A stretch of 64,000 nucleotides of DNA from contig NZ_CP102292.1 in assembly GCF_025152405.1 (NCBI RefSeq), positions 1,674,001 through 1,738,000 on the forward strand, in the 5' to 3' direction. How positions within the stretch are numbered: the first letter of the stretch is position 1; the number at the start of each line of letters is the position of its first letter. Source of the stretch: [Ruminococcus] lactaris ATCC 29176. GTDB lineage: Bacteria > Bacillota > Clostridia > Lachnospirales > Lachnospiraceae. Below the pieces are notes generated by a model. It made no database searches and was not told where the DNA came from. It was given only the letters and a program-made list of their open reading frames with translations. A program made the position numbers and the translations under genes. Of the stretch, positions 26,468 to 43,340 are shown one piece after another.

Positions 26468-28080
26468 ATTTCAATCCACACTTCCGCAAGGGAAGTGACT
26501 CATACTCCCACCCCCACGCCGACTTCACAAATATTTCAATCCACACTTCCGCAAGGGAAGTGACAAAATAGCAACCGGTTTCCCGATAGAGAGAGTCATT
26601 TCAATCCACACTTCCGCAAGGGAAGTGACAGATGGGGAATGATGAGAAAAAGATATCTGCAGATTTCAATCCACACTTCCGCAAGGGAAGTGACAGATTT
26701 TTGATTTTCTGTCTCAGATTGTTAAATATATTTCAATCCACACTTCCGCAAGGGAAGTGACTCGTTACCCCATACAAAGTAGTCTCAAAAGGACATTTCA
26801 ATCCACACTTCCGCAAGGGAAGTGACTCCTGCTTGCTGTTGATTCCGGCAATCTTCCGTGATTTCAATCCACACTTCCGCAAGGGAAGTGACAAACTGCC
26901 CGAAGGGAAAGGCAGCGTTTACAATCATTTCAATCCACACTTCCGCAAGGGAAGTGACCATGTGCTGTAATGGCATACGTTGATACAAATGATTTCAATC
27001 CACACTTCCGCAAGGGAAGTGACCTCTTGTTACAAGAATTAACGGGTTTTCATTGCAAATTTCAATCCACACTTCCGCAAGGGAAGTGACTTCCTGCATC
27101 GTAGCCATTGACGGCAGCACCGTATTTCAATCCACACTTCCGCAAGGGAAGTGACGCAGAAGCGACACGGATCAAGCTGCGGATCAGCATTTCAATCCAC
27201 ACTTCCGCAAGGGAAGTGACCGGGAGCACGCCCGAAATGTGCAAAGGATCAGGGATTTCAATCCACACTTCCGCAAGGGAAGTGACGACTTAGTCATATA
27301 ATATAATGACATAGCAACAAATTTCAATCCACACTTCCGCAAGGGAAGTGACTCCTTGTACCCTGCGACTTTTAACACTGCTTCAGATTTCAATCCACAC
27401 TTCCGCAAGGGAAGTGACCTGTTCGTTAGATCACTGGATGCACAGAAAGCCATATTTCAATCCACACTTCCGCAAGGGAAGTGACAGGATGGAACACTGA
27501 TTGGTCAGCAGATACAGGATTTCAATCCACACTTCCGCAAGGGAAGTGACCACATGGGCAATTCCTATATAAAAAATATGGTGATTTCAATCCACACTTC
27601 CGCAAGGGAAGTGACACAATCAAATTCAATATGTTCCCGGATTGTACCGGATTTCAATCCACACTTCCGCAAGGGAAGTGACTTTGAGAAGTCAGCAGGA
27701 GAGGACTATATGTTCCGTATTTCAATCCACACTTCCGCAAGGGAAGTGACTGTGAGATGGATACCGGGATAGGAGGCGGAAAATATTTCAATCCACACTT
27801 CCGCAAGGGAAGTGACCTGCCGCAATTGGAGCTGTTACATTTTTATTAAGTATTTCAATCCACACTTCCGCAAGGGAAGTGACTGAATGGGCCAGTTTTT
27901 CTGATCTCATCAAAAATATTTCAATCCACACTTCCGCAAGGGAAGTGACTGATATACTCATACGGCCACCCCCATGCCTCAAATTTCAATCCACACTTCC
28001 GCAAGGGAAGTGACGCAGTAATTATGGAATGTATGGTATCAGATCTGAATTTCAATCCACACTTCCGCAAGGGAAGTGAC
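26468..28080 (-). CRISPR. Type I-C CRISPR array, 25 repeats, 24 spacers
   Basis: The 32-bp repeat begins GTCACTTCCCTTGCGG and ends AAGTGTGGATTGAAAT on the minus strand, the typical I-C form with a CACTTCC/GGAAGTG stem. Repeats start at 26468, 26533, 26598, 26663, 26730, 26795, 26861, 26927, 26992, 27059, 27124, 27189, 27255, 27321, 27387, 27454, 27519, 27584, 27651, 27719, 27785, 27852, 27918, 27983 and 28049. All look identical and spacers are 33-36 nt. The leader side is at 28080, next to cas2, so the oldest spacers are near 26500. The last repeat is perfect and directly abuts the integrase relic, so the trailer end was probably cut off. Old spacer 26500-26532 and recent spacer 27950-27982 are related in sequence. 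Confidence 0.98.
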
Positions 28081-28259: not shown

Positions 28260-28550
28260 TTATAAGAATAAAGGCTGATCGACTGCAATTCCTCGTTCTA
28301 CACCTATATGCTCTATCTTGGTCTTATAATTATTTCCAAGATAGTAGAATCGCAAGCTATCTACTTTATCATCAATAATCTCTGTTAACAAAGATTTTAA
28401 CGTCACACTTTGTGCCTGATCCACAATGCACTCAAATACGGAGTTCTGTACTCTTCTCCCATAGTTTTGACATTGTTTGGCTACTTTTCTAAGTCGCTTT
28501 TTTCCGGCTTCATTTTCTGTATTTACATCATATGTAATCAACAACAGCAT
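28260..28550 (-). CDS. cas2: Cas2 (type I-C)
   Basis: It is 96 residues with the ferredoxin-like Cas2 start MLLLITYDVNTENEAGKKRL and the characteristic RVQNSVFECIVDQAQ. Cas2 dimers hold two Cas1 dimers together in the spacer-integration complex. It follows cas1 after 9 bp and is the last gene before the leader. It looks intact, but cas1 is disrupted, so adaptation is unlikely. Confidence 0.96.
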   Translation of the reverse strand: MLLLITYDVNTENEAGKKRLRKVAKQCQNYGRRVQNSVFECIVDQAQSVTLKSLLTEIIDDKVDSLRFYYLGNNYKTKIEHIGVERGIAVDQPLFL

Positions 28551-29224
28551 ATTTCCACCTCATTTCCACAGAAATACAGGATAGCCATCTAAATCTCCAC
28601 GTAAATACCTTGCAAGCAACATTGCCTGTACATACGGAACCATCCCCCATTCAACTTTTTCTTTCAAATATGGATGTGTAATAACTTCTTTTTTCTTATT
28701 CTGCCACTCAACTAATAACTTTTTCCGCAAATCATCCCCCATCAAGACAACTCCATTTTCTTTTTGGGAGAAGTTTTTTCCATTCACATTTTTTTTATTG
28801 ATCAATGACAAAACAAACCGATCTGCATACACACTTCTCAGTTCTTCTATTAGATCTAATGCCAATGATACTCTCCCCGGTCGGTCTGTATGAAGATATC
28901 CGACATAAGGATCCAGTCCTACCACTTCTAACGCAGATGTAATCTGATTTGTTAATAAGGTATATACAAAAGATAACATCGCATTTACATTATCTTTAGG
29001 CGGTCTTTTATTTCTCCCCTGAAAATTAAATTCTTTTTTCTGTTGTAGAATCAATTCATTGAAAACGCCAAAATAAATACTGGCTGCTTCTCCTTCATAA
29101 CCTCTCAATTGGTCTTTCGATTCTGCATTCTGTATATACTGTAACGATTCTTTTAAATGCAAAGATGCTTTCTTCACGCCTTCTACATCTATCTGCATTC
29201 CGTGATCACGAATTGCCCGTTCTA

Positions 29225-30511
29225 GTATAACCGTTATTAATTAACTGGACTTTTGAATTGGCAACGTATCAACCACCACCTCTTCACTTGAATTAATTTC
29301 TTCAAGCTTATACTTCCAGTGATATACGACAGGTTGTTCGTTTACTTCATCGAAGTATCTATAGATACGCTGCACAAGTTCATCCTTAGTTTTTACACGT
29401 ATGCCTTTTAGCATCTGACGTGTGAGTTTACTAAAGAATCCCTCAACAAGATTCAACCATGAACCATGCTTGGGAGTAAACACAAATTCAAATCTTCCCG
29501 GCTTTGTCGCAAGGTATTTTCGGGTTTCCTCTGAAGAATGAACTTTCAGATTATCCAATACCAGACGAATCCGGTCAGTCTCCGGATATTTTGAATCAAG
29601 TATTTTTAGAAACTCAATATATTCCTTGCTGCTGTGTTTATCTTTTACAAGCGGAATTGCCTCCCCTGTTTGTAAGTCGATTCCAGCAAGCAGTGAAATA
29701 GTTCCAAGACGTTTATATTCATAATCACGGCTGACCGTCTTGTGATTTTCATCCGGCAAGAGGTCTTCTGTGGTATTGGCAATTGCCTGAATTCCGGGTT
29801 TTTCATCATAGGAAAGTACATGTACAACCTGTTCATCCTCCTTAAACGGAATGAGCTGTCCCTTCTCGTCAAACTGTAAAGACAATTGTTTATATACAAG
29901 AAGAACATTATGCATTTTCTGGTCAAAATCAGGGTCACGATTTTCGCAGTAATAAGTTATTTTGTTAGGCTTAATATCCGCTTCTTCCAGTATTGTGCGG
30001 ACCTTTGACTGACTGATTGTTGACAACCTTGTATGACCTGCTTCTTCGGCAAATTTATTAATATGTTTTGTAAGAAGAGCACGCGTCCATACTTCTGCTG
30101 AATATCCAAGATTGACAGGCTTCTGACAGGCGATATTTATTATCCAGGCTTTTTCATCATCGGTTATTTCAGCATTCCTGCCACGACCGGGTGCATCAAA
30201 CAGAGCATTTTCCACACCACCCTCAAGGTATTTATTGATACAGAGCATGACGCTTTTGCGATTCATTCCTACTTTGTCTGCAATATGGTCAACTGAAATA
30301 CCTTCTGCTTTGAGTAGTAAAATTCTTGCCCGAATTACTGTCTGGGCTTGAATTGTTCTTGCACGCATCTGAGTTTCAAGATATAAACGTTCGTCCTCGC
30401 TAAGATTAATAGTGGATGCTTTTCTTCCCATAGTTTAATGCTCCTTTTGATTTGATGAGAACAGTATACTACAGAAAAGAAATATAGTCCATTTATTTAA
30501 AAACTTTTGTA
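29225..30511 (-). mobile_element. IS630-family insertion sequence 1, inside cas1
   Basis: It is 1,287 bp, inserted in CTAG with TA duplicated on both sides (29223-29224 and 30512-30513). The ends are imperfect inverted repeats with GTA(C/T)AA and TGGACT in common. It carries one transposase gene. Confidence 0.9.
29241..30431 (-). CDS. IS630-family transposase 1
   Basis: It is 396 residues. N-terminal HTH domains (IRARILLLKAEGISVDHIAD; VGMNRKSVMLCINKYLEGG) bind the ends; the DDE core shows VLSYDEKPGIQAI with the first Asp, IRLVLDNLKVHSS with the second, and KHGSWLNLVEGFFSKLTRQM with the Glu. All catalytic residues are present. It is related to but clearly different from the transposase at 36145-37422. 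Confidence 0.93.
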   Translation of the reverse strand: MGRKASTINLSEDERLYLETQMRARTIQAQTVIRARILLLKAEGISVDHIADKVGMNRKSVMLCINKYLEGGVENALFDAPGRGRNAEITDDEKAWIINIACQKPVNLGYSAEVWTRALLTKHINKFAEEAGHTRLSTISQSKVRTILEEADIKPNKITYYCENRDPDFDQKMHNVLLVYKQLSLQFDEKGQLIPFKEDEQVVHVLSYDEKPGIQAIANTTEDLLPDENHKTVSRDYEYKRLGTISLLAGIDLQTGEAIPLVKDKHSSKEYIEFLKILDSKYPETDRIRLVLDNLKVHSSEETRKYLATKPGRFEFVFTPKHGSWLNLVEGFFSKLTRQMLKGIRVKTKDELVQRIYRYFDEVNEQPVVYHWKYKLEEINSSEEVVVDTLPIQKSS

Positions 30512-30877
30512 CTAGTACCCATCTTGCATTATAAACTTTTCCCATAATACAATTTTTTGCAATTGTGAGACTTATTTCATCATCTTTGCTACTTTTATAC
30601 TGTTGTTCCCGTAAAAGAACATTTCCCTGAACCTTCCCAGTTACTCTTGCCAGAAATTTCCCCTGAGGAGTGAGATAACAAAGTGAAATATTTCTTTCAG
30701 CACATGCTCCCATTAACGCCGGACTGGTTCCCCGATATCCAAAAGAAACAATTCCATCCAAATTGTGTAAAGGCAATCTTCCCAATTCTTTTTTCTCATC
30801 GTATACAACCAGATTTTCTCCATCCAATGCCAGATAACTATTCTCAGAGGTTACATATAAGGTGTTTAATAATTTTC

Positions 30878-31546
30878 TCACTGCTCGTCCTCCTTCAGTG
30901 CCTGTGCTATATAATCAGAAACTGATATCGTCTTTTCTAATTTGGGAAGACAGATTTCCTTTAAAGAGCATGAATTACAAGCCTTACTCTTTTTGACTTT
31001 TGGCGTATAACCTCGCTCATAATACTGATGCATTTCCTGAAATATTTCTTTTACTTCATCACGCAGTTCCTGTGAAAATGTAATATTCTCTCTTCTCCTC
31101 GTTTCTCCATAATAAAGTGCCCCTTCAGATATTGTAGTAGAAAACATTTCTTCCAGACACATTGCCTGTGCTGTTAGCTGTAATTTATCTTCGTCCGTTA
31201 TCTTAGGCTTTCCTTTTTTATATTCCACAGGAAAAACAGAATATAATCCTCTATGACCAGACAATGTAATTCCATCTTCGCATTTATGAAATTCTACCAG
31301 GTCACATTCCCCACTAACTCCAAGCTCTTTCGAGGAAACCGGAAGTGCCCGAACAAGAAGTGTCTCTTTTCTTTTTTCTTTTACACTGGGATCATGGACT
31401 TTTTTATGCATTAATTCACCAATAACTGTATGAACATTTTCACTCCACTGCTGCTCAATATGGATCAAAGCCCATTGCCGTCGGCAGAATTTAAAATGCT
31501 GTATCCCCGACAACATTAAATATTCGTCTTCTTTATATGCCATCAA
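30878..31546 (-). CDS. cas4: Cas4 (type I-C)
   Basis: It is 222 residues with the RecB-like nuclease core (GECDLVEFH; FPVEYKKGKPK) and four cysteines for a 4Fe-4S cluster: Cys in FKFCRRQWAL and three in CNSCSLKEICLP. Cas4 trims prespacers and selects the PAM for Cas1-Cas2. It overlaps cas7 upstream (ATGATG) and cas1 downstream by 4 bp, so the adaptation genes are coupled to the interference genes. It looks intact, but without Cas1 it has no partner. Confidence 0.96.
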   Translation of the reverse strand: MMAYKEDEYLMLSGIQHFKFCRRQWALIHIEQQWSENVHTVIGELMHKKVHDPSVKEKRKETLLVRALPVSSKELGVSGECDLVEFHKCEDGITLSGHRGLYSVFPVEYKKGKPKITDEDKLQLTAQAMCLEEMFSTTISEGALYYGETRRRENITFSQELRDEVKEIFQEMHQYYERGYTPKVKKSKACNSCSLKEICLPKLEKTISVSDYIAQALKEDEQ

Positions 31547-32454
31547 ATCATCCTTTTCATCTCAACTGAATCTGGAATCATTTCCTCGTGAATCTGAACT
31601 GTATAATCCTGATATTTTCTTGGATATTCAATTTCTTCTTTTTTTCTTACTTCGACTGCATCAAAAAGCTTATATGCCGGACAATCCCCCAGTTCCTTGC
31701 TGTGCTTAAACACAATAAGCTCCCGGACAGCCATTTTCCCTCTTGCAGCTGAATGATCATTTTCAAACATATTAATAATTGCCTCCCACAAAAGATCTAA
31801 GTCTTCCTCTGAAAATCCTGTCACTTTTCTGGCCAGATTCGCTGAAATATATCCTTCCACTCGATACAATCCATACGGAACAATATTTTTTCTTCCCATT
31901 TCAGTACTCTTATTTTCAGCATCTTTTTCCGTTGTAATTGCAACTCTTGTAATCGTAACTTCCTGACTGACAATCGGATCGATACTTCTTGCAAAGCCAA
32001 GCTGTACCGGTCCCCTTACCTGTCCACAATTCAAAGAAGCTTTTACAAAAGTGGTCATAACTGCACCAAAGGTACGAATATCATAGAAATTATCACACAT
32101 ATAATCTCTCAGTTTTATATCCACGTCTTTATCTGATTTTTTTAATTTCTTCAATGCTTCGGTAACTTTTTTGTCCTCTGTTTCTGTAATTCCAAGGCTT
32201 TCACAGGCTTCCCGGTCGCTTCTGTTCAACGGAACATCTTCTTTGATGTAGATTTTATAACCTTTTGCATCTTCCTTTACTGTTTCCACATAATTACGAA
32301 TTTTTCGCTTCAGACACACGTCTGTAACCAGTCCCAATCCACTTTCCGGATCTATTCTTGGCATATTACCAGAATCCGGATCTCCATTCGGATTTCCATT
32401 TTCTACATCAAACAGTACCACAAACTCATAACGATTTTTAATTGCTTCTCCCAT
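31543..32454 (-). CDS. cas7: Cas7 (Csd2, type I-C backbone subunit)
   Basis: It is 303 residues and opens with the typical YEFVVLFDVENGNPNGDPDS and SGNMPRIDPESGLGLVTDVC. Several copies of Cas7 coat the crRNA spacer in the I-C Cascade. The gene is directly between cas8c (adjacent) and cas4 (4-bp overlap). No lesions. It is needed for target binding and, in the hypothesis below, for repression by the crRNA-like RNA. Confidence 0.96.
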   Translation of the reverse strand: MGEAIKNRYEFVVLFDVENGNPNGDPDSGNMPRIDPESGLGLVTDVCLKRKIRNYVETVKEDAKGYKIYIKEDVPLNRSDREACESLGITETEDKKVTEALKKLKKSDKDVDIKLRDYMCDNFYDIRTFGAVMTTFVKASLNCGQVRGPVQLGFARSIDPIVSQEVTITRVAITTEKDAENKSTEMGRKNIVPYGLYRVEGYISANLARKVTGFSEEDLDLLWEAIINMFENDHSAARGKMAVRELIVFKHSKELGDCPAYKLFDAVEVRKKEEIEYPRKYQDYTVQIHEEMIPDSVEMKRMI

Positions 32455-34203
32455 TTACTTGTCCTCCTTTTTTTCGTACTTCTTTTGTATCTGATGATAA
32501 TATCCTAACATGAACCTTCCCTGCTCCTCTAATGATAATCGCTTCGGAATTCCTGCATTTTCTTCTGACACATCTAATTTTCCCATCAGATCAGCCAACA
32601 CTTTTTCATAATATATTTTTCTGGCAACTGATTCCCGGTCTATTTTCTTGATATGACTATTTTTCAATTTTATCAGAACCGGAAATATTGATGCTGGTGT
32701 TGCACATGCAGAATTAAAATATCTGTCTCGAATTGTTGCATTAATTCCAGGATTCGCATCCTTTTGAATTGATTCCAGTACTGCAAATATTCTTCCAAGT
32801 ACATAGGAAGTCTCTATACACTCTTCATTTAATCCCATACTATCGTCTCCTTCTTTCCATCCACGGTTTTTAATTAAAAAGGCTTTTATAATTGCCGCTC
32901 TTCCATAAGTAACATTTCCCTGTTCGGCTCTTATTCGTATCAGCGTATCCGTATATAAGCTTTCTGGATATCTTGAATCTTCCAGAATTGCTCTTAATAC
33001 CATTGATGCCATATTAGGAACTGGAGTTTTATCCTTTGACTTCTGATTCACTGTTTCATCCAGCATCTTCTTTACTCCCAGATATTCATTCTCCACCCAG
33101 GAAGGTTTTACAATTTCCATTCTCTGATAATGTCTGGAAATATTCTTAATAATGGTTCCAAATGAATTTTGATAAAAGAACCGAACTGATAATCTTGCTG
33201 CATTTGGTGCAAGACACAGGATATAAAATGGCTGATTCGGATCTAAGTTGATATCCTCAAGGTCTACCCATAATCCCTTCTCTAAATTTCCAAATACTTT
33301 TCTCATTTCTTTCTGATTATCCGGCTTGGGATTCATCCAGGACAAAAATGTCTTTTGATATTCTTCTTTTCCTGATTCTGCCCAGAATACAATCATGGAA
33401 TCTCCTAATGGAAATTGATATTCTCTTTGACTCAATAAATAATTTAATGCTGTTGTGTATGCAAACTCCGCATACTTTCCGACCGGTGCATTATAACTTT
33501 GTTCTTTTCCATAAGACTCGAATGACGGAGCATTAAATGACACAAGTGCTGCTCCACTTGACTGTGCTCCCGGAACTCCTTTTATTCCTCTATGAATACG
33601 TGCTATCTCTGTTTTCTGTCCTGTCACAAGACAGATTCCTTTCTTTCCACTATTTTCTTTTACTTGCAGCTTGTCCCATAGCTTCTTTATTTCATCGTCT
33701 TCCTGTGCATAAATCCCTTTCATACTAAAGATAATATTTCCGCCTTCATTCAGTTCTTCCCAATGTTCTTTAATCACAGGATTCTTCTTTGCCTGTTCCG
33801 GATTCCAGTTTTTAAAGTAAAGACAGATTGCTTTCGCCATTTCTCCCTCTGCCTCTCCAAGAATTGCTAAGTGCTTTTCCCTTGCCGCATGAAAGCAGTC
33901 TATAACTCTCTGATTTGTTCCTTCTGCATCAATTCCAAGAAAATACTTGGCATTATCACATAAAAAGTTAGAAGCAATCCCTGAAGATCTTGTAACCATT
34001 TCCGGTACATTTAAAGGTTCGGGAACCCATACTTTCTTCTTGCCTCTTTGCTCTTCCTTTTTCAATGAAATAATCGTTTTTATTGTTCCATCCGCATTTA
34101 ATTCTATTGCATGCGATACTTTTGCCTGACACCAGCCTGGTTTTGCTGCTTTTCCCTGCTGTACGAGTTCCTCGTAATACTTTACCAATGCCTGCAGAAT
34201 CAT
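32455..34203 (-). CDS. cas8c: Cas8c (Csd1, type I-C large subunit)
   Basis: It is 582 residues, the usual size for Csd1. Recognisable stretches include MILQALVKYYEELVQQG, RSSGIASNFLCDNAKYFLGI and IEMVKPSW-like PSWVENEYLGVKKMLDE. Cas8c reads the PAM (TTC in I-C) and helps open the DNA; an internal start in I-C cas8 genes is known to give a small Cas11-like subunit, which could be made here too from the last about 120 codons. It overlaps cas5 by 4 bp. Confidence 0.95.
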   Translation of the reverse strand: MILQALVKYYEELVQQGKAAKPGWCQAKVSHAIELNADGTIKTIISLKKEEQRGKKKVWVPEPLNVPEMVTRSSGIASNFLCDNAKYFLGIDAEGTNQRVIDCFHAAREKHLAILGEAEGEMAKAICLYFKNWNPEQAKKNPVIKEHWEELNEGGNIIFSMKGIYAQEDDEIKKLWDKLQVKENSGKKGICLVTGQKTEIARIHRGIKGVPGAQSSGAALVSFNAPSFESYGKEQSYNAPVGKYAEFAYTTALNYLLSQREYQFPLGDSMIVFWAESGKEEYQKTFLSWMNPKPDNQKEMRKVFGNLEKGLWVDLEDINLDPNQPFYILCLAPNAARLSVRFFYQNSFGTIIKNISRHYQRMEIVKPSWVENEYLGVKKMLDETVNQKSKDKTPVPNMASMVLRAILEDSRYPESLYTDTLIRIRAEQGNVTYGRAAIIKAFLIKNRGWKEGDDSMGLNEECIETSYVLGRIFAVLESIQKDANPGINATIRDRYFNSACATPASIFPVLIKLKNSHIKKIDRESVARKIYYEKVLADLMGKLDVSEENAGIPKRLSLEEQGRFMLGYYHQIQKKYEKKEDK

Positions 34204-34862
34204 CTGATCACCTCACAGTTTCGTAAATCCAGCACTCCTTTTCTCATGACTGCTCTGAAAAACATCGGCTGTATTTCATCCAGATTACTATAATCCATAT
34301 CATACAACATAAATCCCAGATCCTTTTCAGGCACTGTATCATAACTGGTATGTATCTCTTTTTCTTCACATAAACAGAACTGAGCCGGAAATTCTCTGCA
34401 CCCAAAATATGGCATATGATAGCACTCTCCTCTTTTTAAACGACGCATGATAATATCTTTAAATTTTCCAGGATTGTCCGATGCATTTGCCTTATTCGTC
34501 ATTTCAAAATGTGCTTCTATGATATAGCATACATCACATAAAATTAGAGAGGCTCTCTGAACAATGTCTTCTTTTGTACTAAGATAAAGTGGTTTATCTG
34601 CCCCATTATACACTTGCAGTACATTGCTGGCAGATATCTTGCTTTTTACTTCATTTCGCCTGACACTTGTAAAGCGGATTGGATTCTTCACATAAATCTT
34701 ATCAATAACCCATTTCAGACCGGGATGCCAGTATATTGCTTCCAGAATTCCACGTGCTGCCGAAGGTGTCATAACATCATAAGAACATCTTTCAACCTTC
34801 ATCTCCGGTCTTGAGAACAAAGCATAATCCCCCCACACTTTTACTTTTACACCTATGCCCAT
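34200..34862 (-). CDS. cas5: Cas5 (Cas5c/Csd5, type I-C crRNA endonuclease)
   Basis: It is 220 residues with the Cas5d features KVKVWGDYALFSRPEMKVER and SYDVMTPSAARGILEAIYWH. In I-C systems Cas5 replaces Cas6: it cuts pre-crRNA below the repeat hairpin, leaving an 11-nt 5' handle, and stays bound to it. In this locus the handle would be UGGAUUGAAAU, which is also present in the RNA at 35966-36070. Its stop overlaps cas8c. The upstream neighbour ends exactly one base before its start codon. Confidence 0.96.
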   Translation of the reverse strand: MGIGVKVKVWGDYALFSRPEMKVERCSYDVMTPSAARGILEAIYWHPGLKWVIDKIYVKNPIRFTSVRRNEVKSKISASNVLQVYNGADKPLYLSTKEDIVQRASLILCDVCYIIEAHFEMTNKANASDNPGKFKDIIMRRLKRGECYHMPYFGCREFPAQFCLCEEKEIHTSYDTVPEKDLGFMLYDMDYSNLDEIQPMFFRAVMRKGVLDLRNCEVIR

Positions 34863-35303
34863 CTATAATACTTCTCCTTTCTTATAGCATGCTGCAATAT
34901 AATCCCGCGGCTGGTAATAAAAATCTGTATTATAGTCTGATATTTTTTCATCTATCCACGAATGATAAACTTCCCATAACCCTTTTAAAATATCAGAATC
35001 TTTATAACTATCCTCTATCAGGCGTTCATACACTTCACCAATATCCCAATAATCAGGAATTCTATAACGGCACTCAATTACATTATCAAAATTTCCTGTT
35101 GTGATCTTACATTCGGTTACGAATTCATGTGCAACCTTTTCAATTGGTTCACAGTGCAGCACATCCGCATATTCATAGATTCTGTCTATGTTCTCTTTGC
35201 CCAGGGCTTCTGTTATTTCACATCTGGTTTTCTTTTTTAAACGTCCCATATATTCAATCAGACTGCACGTAAAAAATAAATTATTATTATTTTTTGTTCC
35301 CAT
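34863..35303 (-). CDS. Unknown protein coupled to the DUF3990 gene, possible antitoxin
   Basis: It is 146 residues, soluble and without a recognised domain. Notable stretches are EALGKENIDRIYEYADVLHC, DNVIECRYRIPDYWDIGEVY and YNTDFYYQPRDYIAACYKKG. It overlaps the DUF3990 gene by 17 bp and touches cas5, so all are one transcript. The overlapping arrangement with a possible ADP-ribosyltransferase suggests a toxin/immunity pair, but this rests on position only. It is not a standard type I-C gene. Confidence 0.55.
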   Translation of the reverse strand: MGTKNNNNLFFTCSLIEYMGRLKKKTRCEITEALGKENIDRIYEYADVLHCEPIEKVAHEFVTECKITTGNFDNVIECRYRIPDYWDIGEVYERLIEDSYKDSDILKGLWEVYHSWIDEKISDYNTDFYYQPRDYIAACYKKGEVL

Positions 35304-35754
35304 TTACTGCCTCACTTCCTACATACTGTAATGTATCTAATGCTGATATCGTATGAAAGCTGATCTGATGTGTCGGATGATTGAATTTAACAAGTTCCCA
35401 AAAGGCAGCTCTTGATATTTTCCCATCTATAACATTCTGTACATAATTATAAATGGTATCGTCCGCCATTGGTCCCTCTACAATATCATAATCATGCGAT
35501 TGTCCGCTTCGACAGGCAACAATAAAATCCAACCATTCTTCTGTCATTTCTTCAAAGATCAAATACTTTAATTTTTTATCCGGTGTATATTCATAACAAT
35601 TCACATATCCTTTGCGTCCGTAACGAGTTGCCCAGCGTTCCGCCTGTTCCTGCATCCGGGTACAATAAAAGCCAAAATAAAACTCTTTGTTATACACTGC
35701 TTTCCTTATCTCTGGAAATTCTACAATCTCTTTGCTTCCATGGTACAAAATCAA
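35287..35754 (-). CDS. DUF3990 protein (ADP-ribosyltransferase-like), first gene of the cas operon
   Basis: It is 155 residues from a TTG start at 35754, preceded by GGAGGAGAAG. The family signature is at the N-terminus: ILYHGSKEIVEFPEI, then FYFGFYCTRMQEQAERWATR and YVNCYEYTPDKKL. DUF3990 proteins are predicted relatives of ADP-ribosyltransferases (the LYHGS start resembles the RES/ART Arg/His region) and are found as suspected toxins. It is the promoter-proximal gene of the operon that then contains cas5-cas8c-cas7-cas4-cas1-cas2. Its promoter overlaps the site matched by the crRNA-like RNA. Toxicity is inferred. Confidence 0.65.
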   Translation of the reverse strand: MILYHGSKEIVEFPEIRKAVYNKEFYFGFYCTRMQEQAERWATRYGRKGYVNCYEYTPDKKLKYLIFEEMTEEWLDFIVACRSGQSHDYDIVEGPMADDTIYNYVQNVIDGKISRAAFWELVKFNHPTHQISFHTISALDTLQYVGSEAVNGNKK

Positions 35755-35860: not shown

Positions 35861-35889
35861 ACTATACTACAGTTTATTTTGGTAATCAA
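35861..35889 (-). promoter_or_regulatory. Promoter of the DUF3990-cas operon
   Basis: On the minus strand TTGATT (35889-35884), a 17-bp spacer, and TATAGT (35866-35861) form a good sigma-A promoter. It gives a leader of about 100 nt before the TTG start at 35754. The -35 box lies inside the protospacer-like site 35883-35916. Confidence 0.7.
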
Positions 35890-35919
35890 CATCTTTTATT
35901 CATTTTAAATTCCATTGAA
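35883..35919 (-). promoter_or_regulatory. Protospacer-like site with TTC PAM at the cas promoter
   Basis: Minus strand: TTC (35919-35917) followed by AATGGAATTT and AAAATGAATAA. The spacer-like part of the RNA at 35991 reads AATGGTATTT and TTAATGAAAAA. Seventeen of 21 positions agree, with mismatches at 6, 11, 12 and 19. In type I systems positions 6, 12 and 18 are flipped out and need not pair. Cascade bound here would cover the -35 box; pairing is too short for efficient Cas3 recruitment in known systems. Confidence 0.65.
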
Positions 35920-35930
35920 AATACTTTTTC

Positions 35931-35959
35931 TTGAAATATTTCCTATAACCGTTTATACT
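35931..35959 (+). promoter_or_regulatory. Promoter of the crRNA-like RNA
   Basis: TTGAAA (35931-35936), 17 bp, TATACT (35954-35959) on the + strand, close to consensus. It points away from the cas operon promoter and predicts a start near 35966, just before the hairpin of the repeat-like element. Confidence 0.7.
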
Positions 35960-35965
35960 TATGTT

Positions 35966-36070
35966 GTCTGGTATTCCAGTGGATTGAAATAATGGTATTT
36001 TTAATGAAAAAGCTGAGGGGCTTGTCGCTTTAACGATTTATTAGTGCGACAGCCCCCTCTCTTTATTTCC
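35966..36070 (+). ncRNA. crRNA-like regulatory RNA (single repeat-like element plus spacer-like part)
   Basis: In order: hairpin CTGG-TATT-CCAG (35968-35979); TGGATTGAAAT (35980-35990), identical to the last 11 nt of the array repeat and placed directly below a hairpin as in the real repeat; spacer-like AATGGTATTT TTAATGAAAAAGC (35991-36013); then a terminator. Cas5 should therefore be able to cut or bind it and give an 11-nt handle. The spacer-like part matches the operon promoter site beside a TTC PAM. This is the organisation of CreA/CreR-type mini-CRISPR regulators known from other CRISPR types. Not known to me for this locus; function is inferred. Confidence 0.7.
36016..36066 (+). terminator. 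Terminator of the crRNA-like RNA
   Basis: GGGGCT-T-GTCGC and GCGAC-AGCCCC form a strong stem with one bulged T, followed by CTCTCTTTATTT. It ends the short transcript and could also protect its 3' end. Confidence 0.75.
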
Positions 36071-36097: not shown

Positions 36098-37492
36098 GTA
36101 TAATCCACGCAAATTAGAAGCCTGTTTCAAATTAGCATTTTATGCTAATTCTGGATAGACTTTCTCTTTCGTGAAATTGTTTTTGGTGCTTTTTTGTTTT
36201 TGTTTTCTGCTGAAGCAGCTTTTTCATTTACAACCTCATACACTATGGAATCAATATCTTCTTGAGAAAGATCGATGGTATCCATTTTATATGTCCATTT
36301 GTAGGGCACAGGTTCTTTGTTGATTTCATCAAAGTATCTGTAGATTCTATCTTCGAGTTCTTTCTTGCTTTCCACACGGATTCCACCCAGCATCTGCTTT
36401 GTCATTTTACTGAAAAAACCTTCAATCATGTTTAACCAGGAACCATGTTTGGGTGTAAATACAAACTCAAAACGTCCAGAAACCGTATTCAGATATTCCT
36501 GGGTTTCTTTGGAGGTATGTGCAGAGTGATTATCCAGAATAATCCGAATCATATCGCTCTTTGGATATTTTTCATCAAGTTTCTTTAGAAAAGTCACAAA
36601 GTCAGAACTTTTATGAGTTTCACTTACTAATGGAATTGCTTCTCCTGAGAGCAAATCAATCGCTGCAAGCAGGGAGAGGGTTCCCAGCCTGACATACTCA
36701 TAATCTCGCTGATAGCCATTGCTTTTATCTGTATTCGGAATCGGTGGATGGTCTTCACCTGTGGTAGCAATTGCCTGAATTCCTGGCTTTTCATCATAAG
36801 ACAGGGTATGTACGGCATCTTTCTCAAAGGGAATCAGTTTTCCATCCTTGTCAAACTGCATTTCAATCTGCTTGTAGATAACAAGGACATCATGCATTTT
36901 TGCATCAAACTCAGGATCCCGTCTTTCGCAGTAATAGGACACCTGAAACGGTTTGATCCTTGCATTGCTCAGAATTTTCCGAAGCGTTGTTTCAGCTACT
37001 GTTGCCATACGAGGATGTCCTTCCGTTTCTGCTATAGAGTTGATGAATTTCCTGAAACTCATGGGATACCAGAATTCAGCAGAATAGCCGTAATCCTTCG
37101 GTTTTTGGCAGGCTTTACTGATTACCCAGGTGATATCGTCATCGGTAATTTCCGCTTTCCTTCCACGGCCTTTGTTATCACGTAAAGAAGCTTCAACACC
37201 GTTCTCTTTAAATTTGTTAAGACAACGTTTTACCACACTGATTCCAATATCCAGTTTGTCAGCAATTGCTTTGTTAGATGCACCCTCAGATTTGAGCAGA
37301 AGGATCCTAGCACGTTGATAAACGCGAATTTCCAAAGTGCTCTGAGTCAGCAGTTTATTTAAGTAAGATTTATCATCATCTGTTAAAGAAATAGTTTTAA
37401 TTGTATTAGGCATAATTGGCACCTCCGATGGTTCAATTATACCATAATAGGAATGTGAATTAAAATAGTTTGTTATTTAAAGTGGATTATAC
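36098..37492 (-). mobile_element. IS630-family insertion sequence 2, between cas3 and the cas operon
   Basis: It is 1,395 bp, inserted in CTAG with TA duplicated (36096-36097 and 37493-37494). Both ends read GTATAATCCAC inward, a perfect 11-bp inverted repeat. It separates cas3 from the rest of the operon; without it cas3 and the DUF3990 gene would be about 420 bp apart. Confidence 0.92.
36145..37422 (-). CDS. IS630-family transposase 2
   Basis: It is 425 residues with HTH regions (RARILLLKSEGASNKAIADK; LDIGISVVKRCLNKFKENG) and a complete DDE core: TLSYDEKPGIQAIATTG, IRIILDNHSAHTSKET and KHGSWLNMIEGFFSKMTKQM. A lysine/arginine-rich tail (KNKKAPKTISRKRKSIQN) is extra compared with transposase 1. 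The two share the same layout but differ along the whole length, so they are separate arrivals. Confidence 0.94.
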   Translation of the reverse strand: MPIMPNTIKTISLTDDDKSYLNKLLTQSTLEIRVYQRARILLLKSEGASNKAIADKLDIGISVVKRCLNKFKENGVEASLRDNKGRGRKAEITDDDITWVISKACQKPKDYGYSAEFWYPMSFRKFINSIAETEGHPRMATVAETTLRKILSNARIKPFQVSYYCERRDPEFDAKMHDVLVIYKQIEMQFDKDGKLIPFEKDAVHTLSYDEKPGIQAIATTGEDHPPIPNTDKSNGYQRDYEYVRLGTLSLLAAIDLLSGEAIPLVSETHKSSDFVTFLKKLDEKYPKSDMIRIILDNHSAHTSKETQEYLNTVSGRFEFVFTPKHGSWLNMIEGFFSKMTKQMLGGIRVESKKELEDRIYRYFDEINKEPVPYKWTYKMDTIDLSQEDIDSIVYEVVNEKAASAENKNKKAPKTISRKRKSIQN

Positions 37493-37571: not shown

Positions 37572-39719
37572 TCACACAAAGAACGCCATTCCATCCTCTA
37601 ATGAAAAATCCAGTCCATATTCTTCTGAATACTGCTCTCCATCAACCAACTCATAAAAATCCTGCATCTCTTCTGATACTGGTCTGAGCATACCTGCTCC
37701 ATTCAATCTGTCGAAAAAGCTGTTTTCTGATTTTGCATTGTCATATACCTGAATGCAATACTGTCCTGCTTTCCGCATTCTTTCCCTCGTTACTCCTTTA
37801 ATTCGTAATTCCTGTAATAATTCATCTGCTTCAGGCTCCCTGTTGATAAATATAGTCTTTGTATTTTCTTCGATTAATTTAAATTCCTTTGCAACTTCTG
37901 CGAAATTACATTCCATCTTTTGAAATTCATCCATAATCTTTTTCTTATCCAGACTTGTGCCTCTATAGTGGTATAGTCTTGTAAAATAATCATGAATCGC
38001 TTTTAAATCTGCTATATCAGTATAATCCTGTAAAATCCCTTTGGATACATCAATCTGTTGCCTTTGGTTTGGTACACTATAAGACTCTTCTAAGTCAAAT
38101 ATATAAACCATGCTTTCTGACAATTCTCTTTTTCCTTCACGGTTACATCTTCCCGCTGCCTGTATCATAGAATCAAGCCCCGCTATCTGACGATACACTG
38201 TTGCAAAATCTAAATCTACTCCTGCTTCTACAAGACTTGTAGAAATCACAATGCATTTCTCATTATTTTTTAATCGTTCTCTTATTCTCTTTAACACACG
38301 TTTTCTGTGCTTCGGATACATACTTGTTGACAGATGATAGATTCCTTCTCCTTGTAATTCTTTATAAATCATCTGTGCTGCTTTTTTCGTATTTACAATA
38401 CATAATGCATTATTTTCCTTCTTCAGTTTTTCAAGCAGATCATCCTCTCGTATCCTTCCCAGATTCTGATAATTTACGCGTTTAAAAAAAAGGAATTGTT
38501 CTTCCATTCTTGGACATAATTCTTTTATTAACTCATTTTTAGAAAAAAACGAATCTAATGCCGGCTGCGTTGCAGTACATAATACTATGCTGACAGAATA
38601 ACTGTCCACCAATTCCTGAAGCATCGCTATACAAGGTTTCAGATAATCCATCGGCAGCATCTGTGCTTCATCGAATATAACAACACTGTTCGCAATATTA
38701 TGTATCTTCCTACATTTCGAGGATTTATTTGCAAATAATGATTCGAAAAACTGTACATTTGTTGTTACCACAACAGGCTTGTCCCAATTTTCACTTGCAA
38801 GCTGCATCGGTTTAAATTCTTCTGAGCTTTCATAATCTACATTATAATGATTCTCCAGAACATTTTCCTCACCAAGTATTTCTCGAAATACCTGGGCGTT
38901 CTGTTCAATAATGCTTGTATATGGAATTACATAAATGATACGATCCTTATGATTCTTTACCGCATGTTCCAGAGCAAATGCAAGAGAAGCAACAGTTTTT
39001 CCACCCCCTGTTGGCACTGTAAGACGGAAAATCCCTTCTTTTTGCTTTCCCTCTTTTATACAATGACTCAATATCTCTGTTCTTCGACCATTTATTGTGT
39101 CTGCATCTGTATTTTTCAACCATTCGGAAATATGATTTTTCAATCTATTCTGTAAAGTTACCATGGTCTCTCCCGAATTTCTTCCTGTATCTCCATTTTT
39201 CATGAATGATTCTGTGTCCAGAAAATCTGCATCTACAAGACATGAATACAACATTCTGATAAATGTTCCCAGTGAAAAATCCATATTTCTGTCTTCTTTA
39301 AATGTAATCGGTTCCGTATCCAGATCTGGAATTTCGACCTCATCTTTATAATCCTGATAGTCGCAGATTTTTTTCTTCCATCTTCCACATAAGCTGGAAC
39401 TTATTGCAGTATTTCCATAATCAGGCAGTCCAGCATGATGACCTGCAATGCAATAACTTAGAATGGGATAATAACCTCCAAGTTCTTTACAGACCTGAGC
39501 TCCTGCCGTAGCATGATCCACTTTATCATTTGTATTCTCCTGTATTTTTTTCTGAAATTCTTTCGAGTATTTTCCGATATCATGCAGCATTCCACAGCAA
39601 TAGCCCCATTCTCTTTTTCCAAACTTTTCTGCAAAGTTCCCAGCTCTCTCTGCCGTTCCTTCCAAATGTTCTTTTACAGTCTGTACTCTTTCTCCATCTT
39701 TATGTGCGATATATCCCAT
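37572..39719 (-). CDS. cas3: Cas3 (type I-C helicase-nuclease)
   Basis: It is 715 residues. The N-terminal HD nuclease has MLHDIGKYSKEFQKKI and an HAGLPDYG segment; the superfamily-2 helicase has Walker A TVPTGGGKTVASLAFAL, the DEAQ box VIFDEAQMLP, and motif VI IQAAGRCNREGKREL. Cas3 is recruited to Cascade-bound DNA and degrades it. The gene is intact. It has its own leader upstream at 39720-39783 and is now cut off from the rest of the operon by IS630-2. A partial copy of its first 26 bp and upstream region is at 41132-41289. Confidence 0.96.
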   Translation of the reverse strand: MGYIAHKDGERVQTVKEHLEGTAERAGNFAEKFGKREWGYCCGMLHDIGKYSKEFQKKIQENTNDKVDHATAGAQVCKELGGYYPILSYCIAGHHAGLPDYGNTAISSSLCGRWKKKICDYQDYKDEVEIPDLDTEPITFKEDRNMDFSLGTFIRMLYSCLVDADFLDTESFMKNGDTGRNSGETMVTLQNRLKNHISEWLKNTDADTINGRRTEILSHCIKEGKQKEGIFRLTVPTGGGKTVASLAFALEHAVKNHKDRIIYVIPYTSIIEQNAQVFREILGEENVLENHYNVDYESSEEFKPMQLASENWDKPVVVTTNVQFFESLFANKSSKCRKIHNIANSVVIFDEAQMLPMDYLKPCIAMLQELVDSYSVSIVLCTATQPALDSFFSKNELIKELCPRMEEQFLFFKRVNYQNLGRIREDDLLEKLKKENNALCIVNTKKAAQMIYKELQGEGIYHLSTSMYPKHRKRVLKRIRERLKNNEKCIVISTSLVEAGVDLDFATVYRQIAGLDSMIQAAGRCNREGKRELSESMVYIFDLEESYSVPNQRQQIDVSKGILQDYTDIADLKAIHDYFTRLYHYRGTSLDKKKIMDEFQKMECNFAEVAKEFKLIEENTKTIFINREPEADELLQELRIKGVTRERMRKAGQYCIQVYDNAKSENSFFDRLNGAGMLRPVSEEMQDFYELVDGEQYSEEYGLDFSLEDGMAFFV

Positions 39720-39783
39720 TTTATTACCATCCTCTATATCTTCTCCATTATTGTTACCCTGTCATTTTAAAGAACATCCTCAC

Positions 39784-40623
39784 TTACACGGTTACATATT
39801 TCTCCGCTTCTTCTTTGCATTTCAACGTATTTCCATGCCCAATTACATATTTCATACATTCTTTTCCCTGCTCTTCTTTTCCGATTCGGTAGTAACATAC
39901 TCCCAGCAGGAATCTGCGTGTAACCTCATAATAAGGCAGCTTTTCCGTATCATTTTCCAGTAATCTTACTGCTGCCTCATCTTCACCTTTCAGCATCAAA
40001 TTTTTTGCCATTAACAGCGGATTCTTCTGAAATACTTTCCCTGCTTTTTCTAATGTAGCCGAATAACCTGCCGCATCTTTCTCCTGATATTTCTTCGCCA
40101 GTTCGAGATTCGTCATGACCTGCTGCCAGGAACGTCCCTCTCTTTTTCCTTGCCATTCATTCTTTATATACTCTTCTGCCTTCTGCAACTGCCCATTTAT
40201 GATCAGTGCAACTACATATTTAGGCTCAGCTATCAGCATGACATTTTTTTGAAATCTATGATAATCCAGACTCTTTCCGTACTTTATCATCCCTTCCAGC
40301 ATTTCTGAATATTTTTCTGCATCACATTGCTCTGACAGAATCCGGTCAATTTTTGAAAAATCTCTGAGAATGCCCTTGATTAAAATGAATATACCTGCGA
40401 TCAGATCAACCACCACGCAAATCCACAGAAGCCAGGGATCTGTCGTGACCCAGCCCGGCTGCTTCACATCGAAAAAGAGTACTGTCTCCTGATGCGGGAA
40501 CGGATTTCCTTTAAAAATACTCACCACACAGATCAATGCTGCATAAATCAACAGCACATTCCGTATCATCCTGATGCGTCCCTTTTTCTGCTTTTCATAA
40601 ATCTTTTTTATCTGCTTTTCCAT
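39784..40623 (-). CDS. Membrane-anchored TPR-like protein, unknown function
   Basis: It is 279 residues with two membrane spans (about residues 22-38, VLLIYAALICVVSIF, and 66-84, LLWICVVVDLIAGIFILI) and a helical cytoplasmic domain resembling tetratricopeptide repeats (QLQKAEEYIKNEW; LMLKGEDEAAVRLLEND; FLLGVCYYRIGKEEQGKECM). It lies upstream of cas3 on the same strand with a 64-bp gap. Its last codons are duplicated at 41228-41289. It is probably a host gene next to the CRISPR insertion site. No specific function is suggested by the sequence. Confidence 0.65.
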   Translation of the reverse strand: MEKQIKKIYEKQKKGRIRMIRNVLLIYAALICVVSIFKGNPFPHQETVLFFDVKQPGWVTTDPWLLWICVVVDLIAGIFILIKGILRDFSKIDRILSEQCDAEKYSEMLEGMIKYGKSLDYHRFQKNVMLIAEPKYVVALIINGQLQKAEEYIKNEWQGKREGRSWQQVMTNLELAKKYQEKDAAGYSATLEKAGKVFQKNPLLMAKNLMLKGEDEAAVRLLENDTEKLPYYEVTRRFLLGVCYYRIGKEEQGKECMKYVIGHGNTLKCKEEAEKYVTV

Positions 40624-40666: not shown

Positions 40667-40864
40667 ATGATGCCAGGGTCAAAAGGTCTAAGCCCACATG
40701 AGCTTGCTCATAGGTGGGTGAAAGACCTTAGAACCCGCCCCGATATGAGCATAAAAGTGGGATGATAATCCCACGATATGCGAATATTGGGCAGGATTGT
40801 GGGAGTGCGTAGCACGGAGCAATCCGTAGGCATCAAAGTCGGGGGCTTTTGACCCCGACATCAT
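40667..40864. repeat. 198-bp MITE-like repeat (long form)
   Basis: The ends are inverted repeats, ATGATGCCAGGGTCAAAAG and its near complement CTTTTGACCCCGACATCAT. Inside are hairpins (GTGGGAT...ATCCCAC). The first 63 bp also occur at 62169-62231. No transposase. It sits in non-coding DNA; a 62-codon frame inside it is not a gene. Confidence 0.75.
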
Positions 40865-41121: not shown

Positions 41122-41131
41122 TCCATATTCA

Positions 41132-41289
41132 CCATCTTTATGTGCGATATATCCTATTTTATTACCATCCTCTATATCTTCTCCATTTTTGTTACCCTGT
41201 CATTTTAAAGAACATCCTTACTTACACTGTTACATATTTTTCCGCTTCTTCTTTGCACTTCAACGTATTTCCATGCCCAATTACATATT
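41132..41289 (-). repeat. Duplicate of the cas3 5' end and its upstream region
   Basis: This 158-bp segment matches 39694-39851 with about six differences. It contains the first codons of cas3, the spacer, and the last codons of the TPR-like gene, joined on one side to the PBP relic and on the other to the MATE relic. It marks an old duplication or recombination junction at the border of the CRISPR block. Confidence 0.8.
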
Positions 41290-42790: not shown

Positions 42791-43090
42791 TCAATCAAAG
42801 ATTCTCGTAATATCCTGATACCGGTTGATTACACGATAAATTTCTACATACTCATTATCTACTTTGTAGATAATCACATAATCTTCCCATATCGCATACT
42901 TATAGTCTGTCCAAAAGCTGACTCGTTTTGAAAGATCCGAACCCATTCCAGGAAACATCTGAAGATTTTCGAATTTGCCATAAATCTCCTTTATGGTCTT
43001 TGCCGCATTCTCCTCGTTATCTTCAGCAATGTAATCCCGAATGCTTTTTAAATCCTTTGCAACAATCGGGTTAATCCTCAATTTTAACAT
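42791..43090 (-). CDS. RelE/ParE-family toxin
   Basis: It is 99 residues with the typical LRINPIVAKDLKSIRDYIAE, FPGMGSDLSKRV and a C-terminal DYVIIYKVDNEYVEIYRVIN. ParE/RelE toxins attack gyrase or ribosome-bound mRNA; the sequence alone does not tell which. It follows the antitoxin gene after one base, the usual co-transcribed order. It appears complete. Confidence 0.88.
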   Translation of the reverse strand: MLKLRINPIVAKDLKSIRDYIAEDNEENAAKTIKEIYGKFENLQMFPGMGSDLSKRVSFWTDYKYAIWEDYVIIYKVDNEYVEIYRVINRYQDITRIFD

Positions 43091-43091
43091 C

Positions 43092-43340
43092 CTATTCCCC
43101 CACGAGTGCTTTCAATTCATCCAAATCAAGCCATCCTTCGCCGTCTTTCACTGCTTCTTCTGCTTCTTGCAGCTTCATCAAGAGCTTCTTTTCTGCCCGA
43201 TCACGTTCATAATCCTCAAAGTCCATAACTACAAAACGACCTCTGCCATTCTTTGTAAGATACACTGGCTCGCCTTTATGACAATTTTTTAGGACTTCAT
43301 TATAATTTCTTAAATCAGATACTGGTAAAATACTTGCCAT
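43092..43340 (-). CDS. Phd/YefM-family antitoxin
   Basis: It is 82 residues. SILPVSDLRNYNEVLKNCHK and PVYLTKNGRGRFVVMDFEDY are the Phd/YefM N-terminal DNA-binding part; the acidic C-terminus (EAVKDGEGWLDLDELKALVG) would wrap the toxin. Such antitoxins repress their own operon. The ribosome site GGAG is upstream of the ATG at 43340. A strong inverted repeat at 43395-43434 lies just upstream. Confidence 0.88.
   Translation of the reverse strand: MASILPVSDLRNYNEVLKNCHKGEPVYLTKNGRGRFVVMDFEDYERDRAEKKLLMKLQEAEEAVKDGEGWLDLDELKALVGE

Follow-up and report, generated by a model that had tools for sequence, protein, structure and literature searches.

A type I-C locus with an ectopic crRNA-like element

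The stretch of DNA analysed here (henceforth the window) comprises 64,000 nucleotides of [Ruminococcus] lactaris ATCC 29176 (contig NZ_CP102292.1, positions 1,674,001 to 1,738,000) and contains a type I-C CRISPR-Cas locus with a small guide element, similar to a CRISPR array reduced to the end of one repeat, that matches the promoter of the locus itself. The genes lie on the minus strand in the order cas3 (37572–39719), an IS630-type element (36145–37422), the guide region, M10A (35287–35754, TTG start), M10B (34863–35303), cas5c (34200–34862), cas8c (32455–34203), cas7c (31543–32454), cas4 (30878–31546), a split cas1 (28560–30881), cas2 (28260–28550, assigned by position and size) and a type I-C array of 25 repeats (26468–28080, also on the minus strand; repeat sequence GTCACTTCCCTTGCGGAAGTGTGGATTGAAAT). 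M10A is a DUF3990 protein, predicted to be a toxin of ADP-ribosyltransferase (ART) fold. The reading frames of M10A and M10B overlap, and the last base of M10B directly precedes cas5c, a gene layout which indicates that M10A-M10B and the cas genes very probably form one operon. As cas1 is interrupted by an IS630-type transposase gene (29241–30431), spacer acquisition has probably been lost, and the interference genes appear intact.

The guide element is encoded on the plus strand. It consists of a promoter (TTGAAA-17-TATACT, 35931–35959), a pseudo-repeat hairpin (CTGG-TATT-CCAG, 35968–35979), an 11-nt sequence identical to the end of the array repeat and corresponding to the 5' handle of a CRISPR RNA (crRNA) (TGGATTGAAAT, 35980–35990), a spacer-like guide (AATGGTATTTTTAATGAAAAA, 35991–36011), of which positions 1–17 (35991–36007) are the pairing part, and a terminator-like hairpin with a T-rich tail (36015–36068) that would end the guide RNA. 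The hairpin abuts the handle just as the repeat hairpin does in the array. A first-pass annotation, made from the letters alone, had described this promoter, this hairpin and an exact 11-nt repeat end, and all of them are located where it had claimed. There are 26 matches to TGGATTGAAAT in the window, for a chance expectation of 0.19; 25 belong to the array and the ectopic copy is the only one outside it. The annotation had also called the terminator strong. The long hairpin (36015–36059) does fold (z of -2.5 for the whole guide RNA), and a long inverted repeat soon after the guide is found in relatives too, but a simple terminator scan, which is limited to shorter loops, did not list the hairpin. 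The guide RNA gave no match in Rfam. The IS630-type transposase gene (36145–37422, minus strand) lies just beyond the terminator and leaves guide and target unbroken.

Divergent from the guide promoter is that of the toxin-cas operon (TTGATT-17-TATAGT, 35861–35889, minus strand). On the same strand a TTC trinucleotide (35917–35919), the putative protospacer adjacent motif (PAM), precedes the target, a 35-nt protospacer footprint (35882–35916) whose matched part is 35916–35900. Of the 21 positions of AATGGTATTTTTAATGAAAAA, 17 are identical to the minus-strand DNA that follows TTC (35919–35917) and four (6, 11, 12 and 19) are not, so that the match proposed earlier, reaching to the -35 box, is confirmed in the sequence. 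The -35 box starts at target position 28 and hence falls inside the footprint of a type I complex, which is about 35 nt. In the whole 2.73-Mb genome this promoter site is the sole occurrence of the 20-nt target pattern TTCAATGGNATTTNNAATGA. The first-pass annotation had taken the target for the promoter of the cas operon; it does drive the cas genes, but two non-cas genes, M10A and M10B, precede cas5c.

Conservation of the guide element in relatives

Relatives were gathered from relatives of M10A and of Cas5c, and the loci were fetched and scanned for the handle; the tally of guides was put together by hand from these scans, in a search biased towards TGGATTGAAAT. This yielded 27 non-redundant I-C loci that contain the M10 pair, of which only L003 ends too close to be judged. 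A lone handle was present at 21 of the 26 informative loci, nearly always between cas3 and M10A and on the opposite strand (in L148 it is upstream of cas3), and most of these have a co-varying, TTC-flanked promoter match. The expectation that relatives would keep the repeat-like part and the promoter match together was thus mostly borne out. Cultured relatives that share the arrangement include Blautia massiliensis and Dorea phocaeensis. Among I-C loci without the toxin, five out of 17 carry a guide, in the gap between cas3 and the operon (L117, L126, L127) or upstream of cas3 (L123, L133). Where relatives had no handle match, a search that tolerated up to 3 mismatches found nothing convincing. 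M10 pairs standing alone, namely the second copy in the same genome and those of G001, G034 and G625, have no handle within about 4 kb. Plasmids gave distant cas5c matches only.

The one phage entry with a close M10A (L179) is MT836695.1, labelled 'Bacteriophage sp.' in GenBank. It contains M10A-M10B within an I-C cas locus that has a guide of its own, and is probably a mislabelled bacterial scaffold.

Guide and target pairing

Guides fit the targets of their own loci. The regions are A+T-rich and cross-matches average 9.5/15; even so, the fit of each guide to its own target summed to 325, the permuted maximum was 266, and none of 20,000 permutations reached the observed value. For a pairing profile we used the 21 loci whose fit was 12/15 or better, leaving positions 6, 12 and 18 out of the choice of site. 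Identity was complete at positions 1–5, dropped to 0.33 at position 6, recovered to 0.86–1.00 at 7–11, dropped again to 0.24 at 12, rose to 0.71–1.00 at 13–17 and was at background from 18 on. At the level of sequence this is the pattern of type I crRNAs, in which every sixth position is unpaired, and the suggestion that the mismatches at 6 and 12 were of this kind is upheld across relatives, in which 6, 12 and 18 are all at background. Mutation of an I-F CreA, a crRNA-like RNA discussed below, showed that positions 2–5, 7–9 and 13–17 matter (PMC10097628), in agreement with our profile.

When matches were searched without regard to the PAM, all 19 best matches of at least 13/15 followed TTC (background 2.6%), which is a tested I-C PAM (PMC8406640). 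In 15 of the 19 loci the -35 box starts at target position 24–36, and in a sixteenth at 41; L006 and L007 have a second target closer to the promoter. Among relatives whose target is good, the -10 box mostly ends 20–38 nt ahead of the handle. Of 24 guides, 16 carry a stem of 4 bp or more directly next to the handle, compared to 7% of shuffles, and the sequence of the pseudo-repeat stem varies among relatives (CAGG/CCTG, CTGG/CCAG, CAGAG/CTCTG, CAGC/GCTG). This comparison among relatives constitutes very strong evidence that the element is a Cascade guide.

Some individual loci depart from the simplest arrangement. Two tandem TTC sites upstream of M10A fit one guide in L006/L037 and in L007/L036 (in L006 at 109 and 135 nt before M10A), which suggests double targets. 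At L040, L043 and L126 (cas3-operon gap) the opposite strand holds the best target, which in L040 is close to the start of M10A and in L043 matches weakly, and repression may proceed there from the other orientation. Many guides (L004, L007, L041, L044, L002 and others) also contain a weak inverted repeat, at about positions 8–12 with 18–22 (e.g. TTTACaataaTGTAAA), that is not seen in the targets and could possibly be an RNA-stability element.

The M10A-M10B pair

M10A matches Pfam DUF3990 (E=2e-49), with no KilA-N, and the PADLOC profile PDC-M10A (E=8e-79); M10B corresponds to PDC-M10B. DUF3990 belongs to the ART clan of Pfam (PMC7955679), and a predicted Rhs effector of a type VI secretion system has a domain of this family as its C-terminal tip (PMC4524185). 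A search of the PDB with the M10A sequence gave no match. The AF2 model (pLDDT 88.5), compared by VIA-align, gave top rows that were nearly all ARTs (Z 6.3–8.0), headed by ParT and followed by RES and several ART toxins. Y30 and Q130 are invariant and H5 nearly so, which makes these three residues the presumptive catalytic ones. M10B is all-helical and found no match in Pfam or NCBIfam and no fold match in the PDB; it may be an antitoxin or some other partner of M10A.

Pairs of M10A and M10B standing alone occur in several phyla. Of the 24 cas-linked M10A copies, 23 fall within one clade of 28 (support 99/90), a phylogeny that suggests a single recruitment of the pair with later departures. 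The divergent I-C-like system of L052 (2446–7444) has M10A-M10B between cas8 and cas7, its M10A sits on another branch, and no guide was found there. Given that branch, the pair may have joined cas operons on more than one occasion.

A proposed guide-controlled operon and its possible role

We interpret the element as a mini-CRISPR guide gene of the creR/creA type that would serve the local type I-C Cascade. Its RNA, expected to be roughly 90–100 nt long, would begin at the one-repeat remnant, offer about 17 nt of usable guide and end in the hairpin; Cas5c would cut it at the handle, giving a processed form with its 5' end at UGGAUUGAAAU. Cascade carrying this guide would then bind the TTC-flanked site that reaches the -35 box and repress M10A-M10B-cas5-cas8-cas7-cas4. 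The match is expected to be too short for destruction by Cas3: in one I-C system the killing of cells by self-targets requires at least 27 bp (PMC8406640), and matches of about 17 nt are below that minimum, so repression would be expected rather than destruction. On the evidence of these sequences, guide-directed repression of the M10A-M10B-cas operon is very likely. The conservation, co-variation and pairing described above thus favour the original proposal that Cascade with this RNA represses the operon, but the proposal was incomplete, as the operon starts with the ART-fold toxin-like pair. Therefore the element would be CreA-like, in repressing a toxin, as well as CreR-like, in the autorepression of cas genes.

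In normal cells such a circuit would keep Cascade at a set point and M10A low. If Cascade were inhibited, titrated or lost, the promoter would open and yield fresh Cascade along with the ART-fold toxin-like protein. After a brief shortage the new Cascade would restore repression; under a sustained loss M10A would accumulate and the cell would be harmed or arrested. The whole would in effect be a feedback-buffered suicide switch, in which a one-repeat guide and Cascade repress the transcript for Cascade and an ADP-ribosylating toxin, lasting inhibition (e.g. by an anti-CRISPR) unleashes the toxin, and the pair entered CreR-controlled I-C operons of gut Lachnospiraceae in a single event. To this complete scenario we assign an even chance; its toxin half, taken separately, stands close to evens as well.

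Several observations weigh against the interpretation as a whole. Some loci with the M10 pair have no recognisable guide: L005, L010/L149, L045 and L047, for no clear reason, and also L031, the nearest relative (94% in M10A), in which the guide, target and -35 region are gone, together with the greater part of both cas3 and cas5 (L031 4600–6100), although M10A-M10B is intact. Three others (L009, L043, L120) have a handle and only a weak target (10/15). Foldseek E-values for the ART fold of M10A are weak (best 0.026), and a Z of about 8 is not decisive by itself. Finally, many genomes have the pair on its own, so M10A may already be neutralised by M10B, and this may leave the toxin half of the switch silent.

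The last point leads to a rival explanation, that the guide is there for cas autorepression only, as in CreR, and M10A-M10B is a self-contained toxin-antitoxin or defence pair carried in the operon, whose induction is harmless as M10B neutralises it. The guides at five of the 17 toxin-less loci fit this well, as do the M10 pairs that live alone in many genomes with no handle nearby in those checked. However, guides are commoner with the M10 pair (20/25 against 5/17, p 0.0016, in a search with some bias towards TGGATTGAAAT), and throughout one clade and in many genera the pair has remained the first to follow the repressed promoter. We regard this explanation as possible but somewhat doubtful. 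The opposite view, with repression of the toxin selected as for an antitoxin RNA of the CreA kind and autorepression of cas as a by-product, would account for the same difference in guide frequency, but clear guides, with 14–15/15 matches, are found at the toxin-less L117, L126, L127, L123 and L133, making it unlikely. For the same reason, guides being present without the toxin, a role as toxin-only antitoxin was rejected as the sole reading.

Two further origins were considered. A chance resemblance, or the functionless decayed end of a former array, might be entertained since A+T-rich regions make short matches common, but it is contradicted by the permutation test, the PAM enrichment, the periodicity and the conservation across genera, and we consider it extremely improbable. 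The element might also derive from a phage, as an anti-CRISPR RNA with a solitary repeat (Racr) that blocks Cascade; Racr (PMC10651486) are similar in anatomy to a lone repeat remnant that has a promoter and terminator of its own. Racr are encoded by phages or mobile elements and need no promoter match, whereas the element here is kept between cas3 and the operon in many chromosomes, belongs to the cas loci of many genera, and matches the operon promoter at a PAM-flanked site that co-varies with it; hardly any weight can be given to this origin.

Comparison with known systems

Autorepression by CreR has been reported for types I-B, I-E and V-A (PMC13131331). In both cases an ectopic degenerate repeat, bearing a crRNA handle outside the array, precedes a short guide that is complementary to the cas promoter over a limited, PAM-flanked stretch, and autorepression is predicted. 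Our case differs in being type I-C and in having the M10A-M10B toxin-like pair first in the same operon; descriptions of CreR present it as a system that in general has no toxin gene coupled to it (PMC12737573). The CreTA systems, found in I-B of Haloarcula and Halobacterium and in I-F of Acinetobacter, have CreA repressing a toxic RNA (PMC8501985, PMC10097628). CreA shares the pairing map and, in I-F, the cas3-proximal intergenic position with our element, and a one-repeat form with a terminator end is known from H. hispanica. In contrast, a promoter of its own drives CreT, a small toxic RNA, and here a protein pair leads the cas operon; the promoter runs into a protein-coding operon, whose 5' leader was not searched for a small RNA.

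In CrePA a crRNA-like RNA and Cascade repress a protein toxin, CreP, typically of the KilA-N type (PMC12737573). Inhibition of Cascade would release that toxin, and may here release the predicted ART-fold, toxin-like protein that comes first in the operon. This protein differs from CreP in being DUF3990/ART rather than KilA-N and in sharing its transcript with cas5-8-7-4. The M10A model is also similar to the ART-fold toxin-antitoxin systems ParT/ParS (6d0h) and RES/Xre (6gw6), with Z of 8.0 and 7.0, although the identity is only about 7–10% and M10B, all-helical, has no match in the PDB. The locus would therefore work like CreR and, probably, like CrePA at once, within type I-C; the guide has strong comparative support and a death switch moderate support. 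The literature searched contained no link between DUF3990 and CRISPR, while an I-C example may exist in the supplements of the primary CreR and CrePA papers.

If the interpretation is right, RNA-guided autorepression of cas genes extends to type I-C, and two arrangements described separately before, CreR self-control and a CRISPR-repressed toxin, are joined in one transcript. It would also provide a function and a control circuit for the uncharacterised ART-fold pair PADLOC PDC-M10, and predicts an anti-anti-CRISPR response in common gut bacteria. The roughly 20 natural guide-target pairs could indicate the shortest match that Cascade needs for repression.

Other features of the window

Beyond the operon, a 162-nt direct repeat (39690–39851 and 41128–41289, 96% identity) spans the cas3 5' region and the end of a neighbouring gene, and represents a local partial duplication. 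A Clostridiales-1 small RNA (Rfam RF01699) lies at 40668–40835 on the plus strand, and a pair of ParE toxin and Phd/YefM antitoxin is encoded at 42791–43340 on the minus strand.
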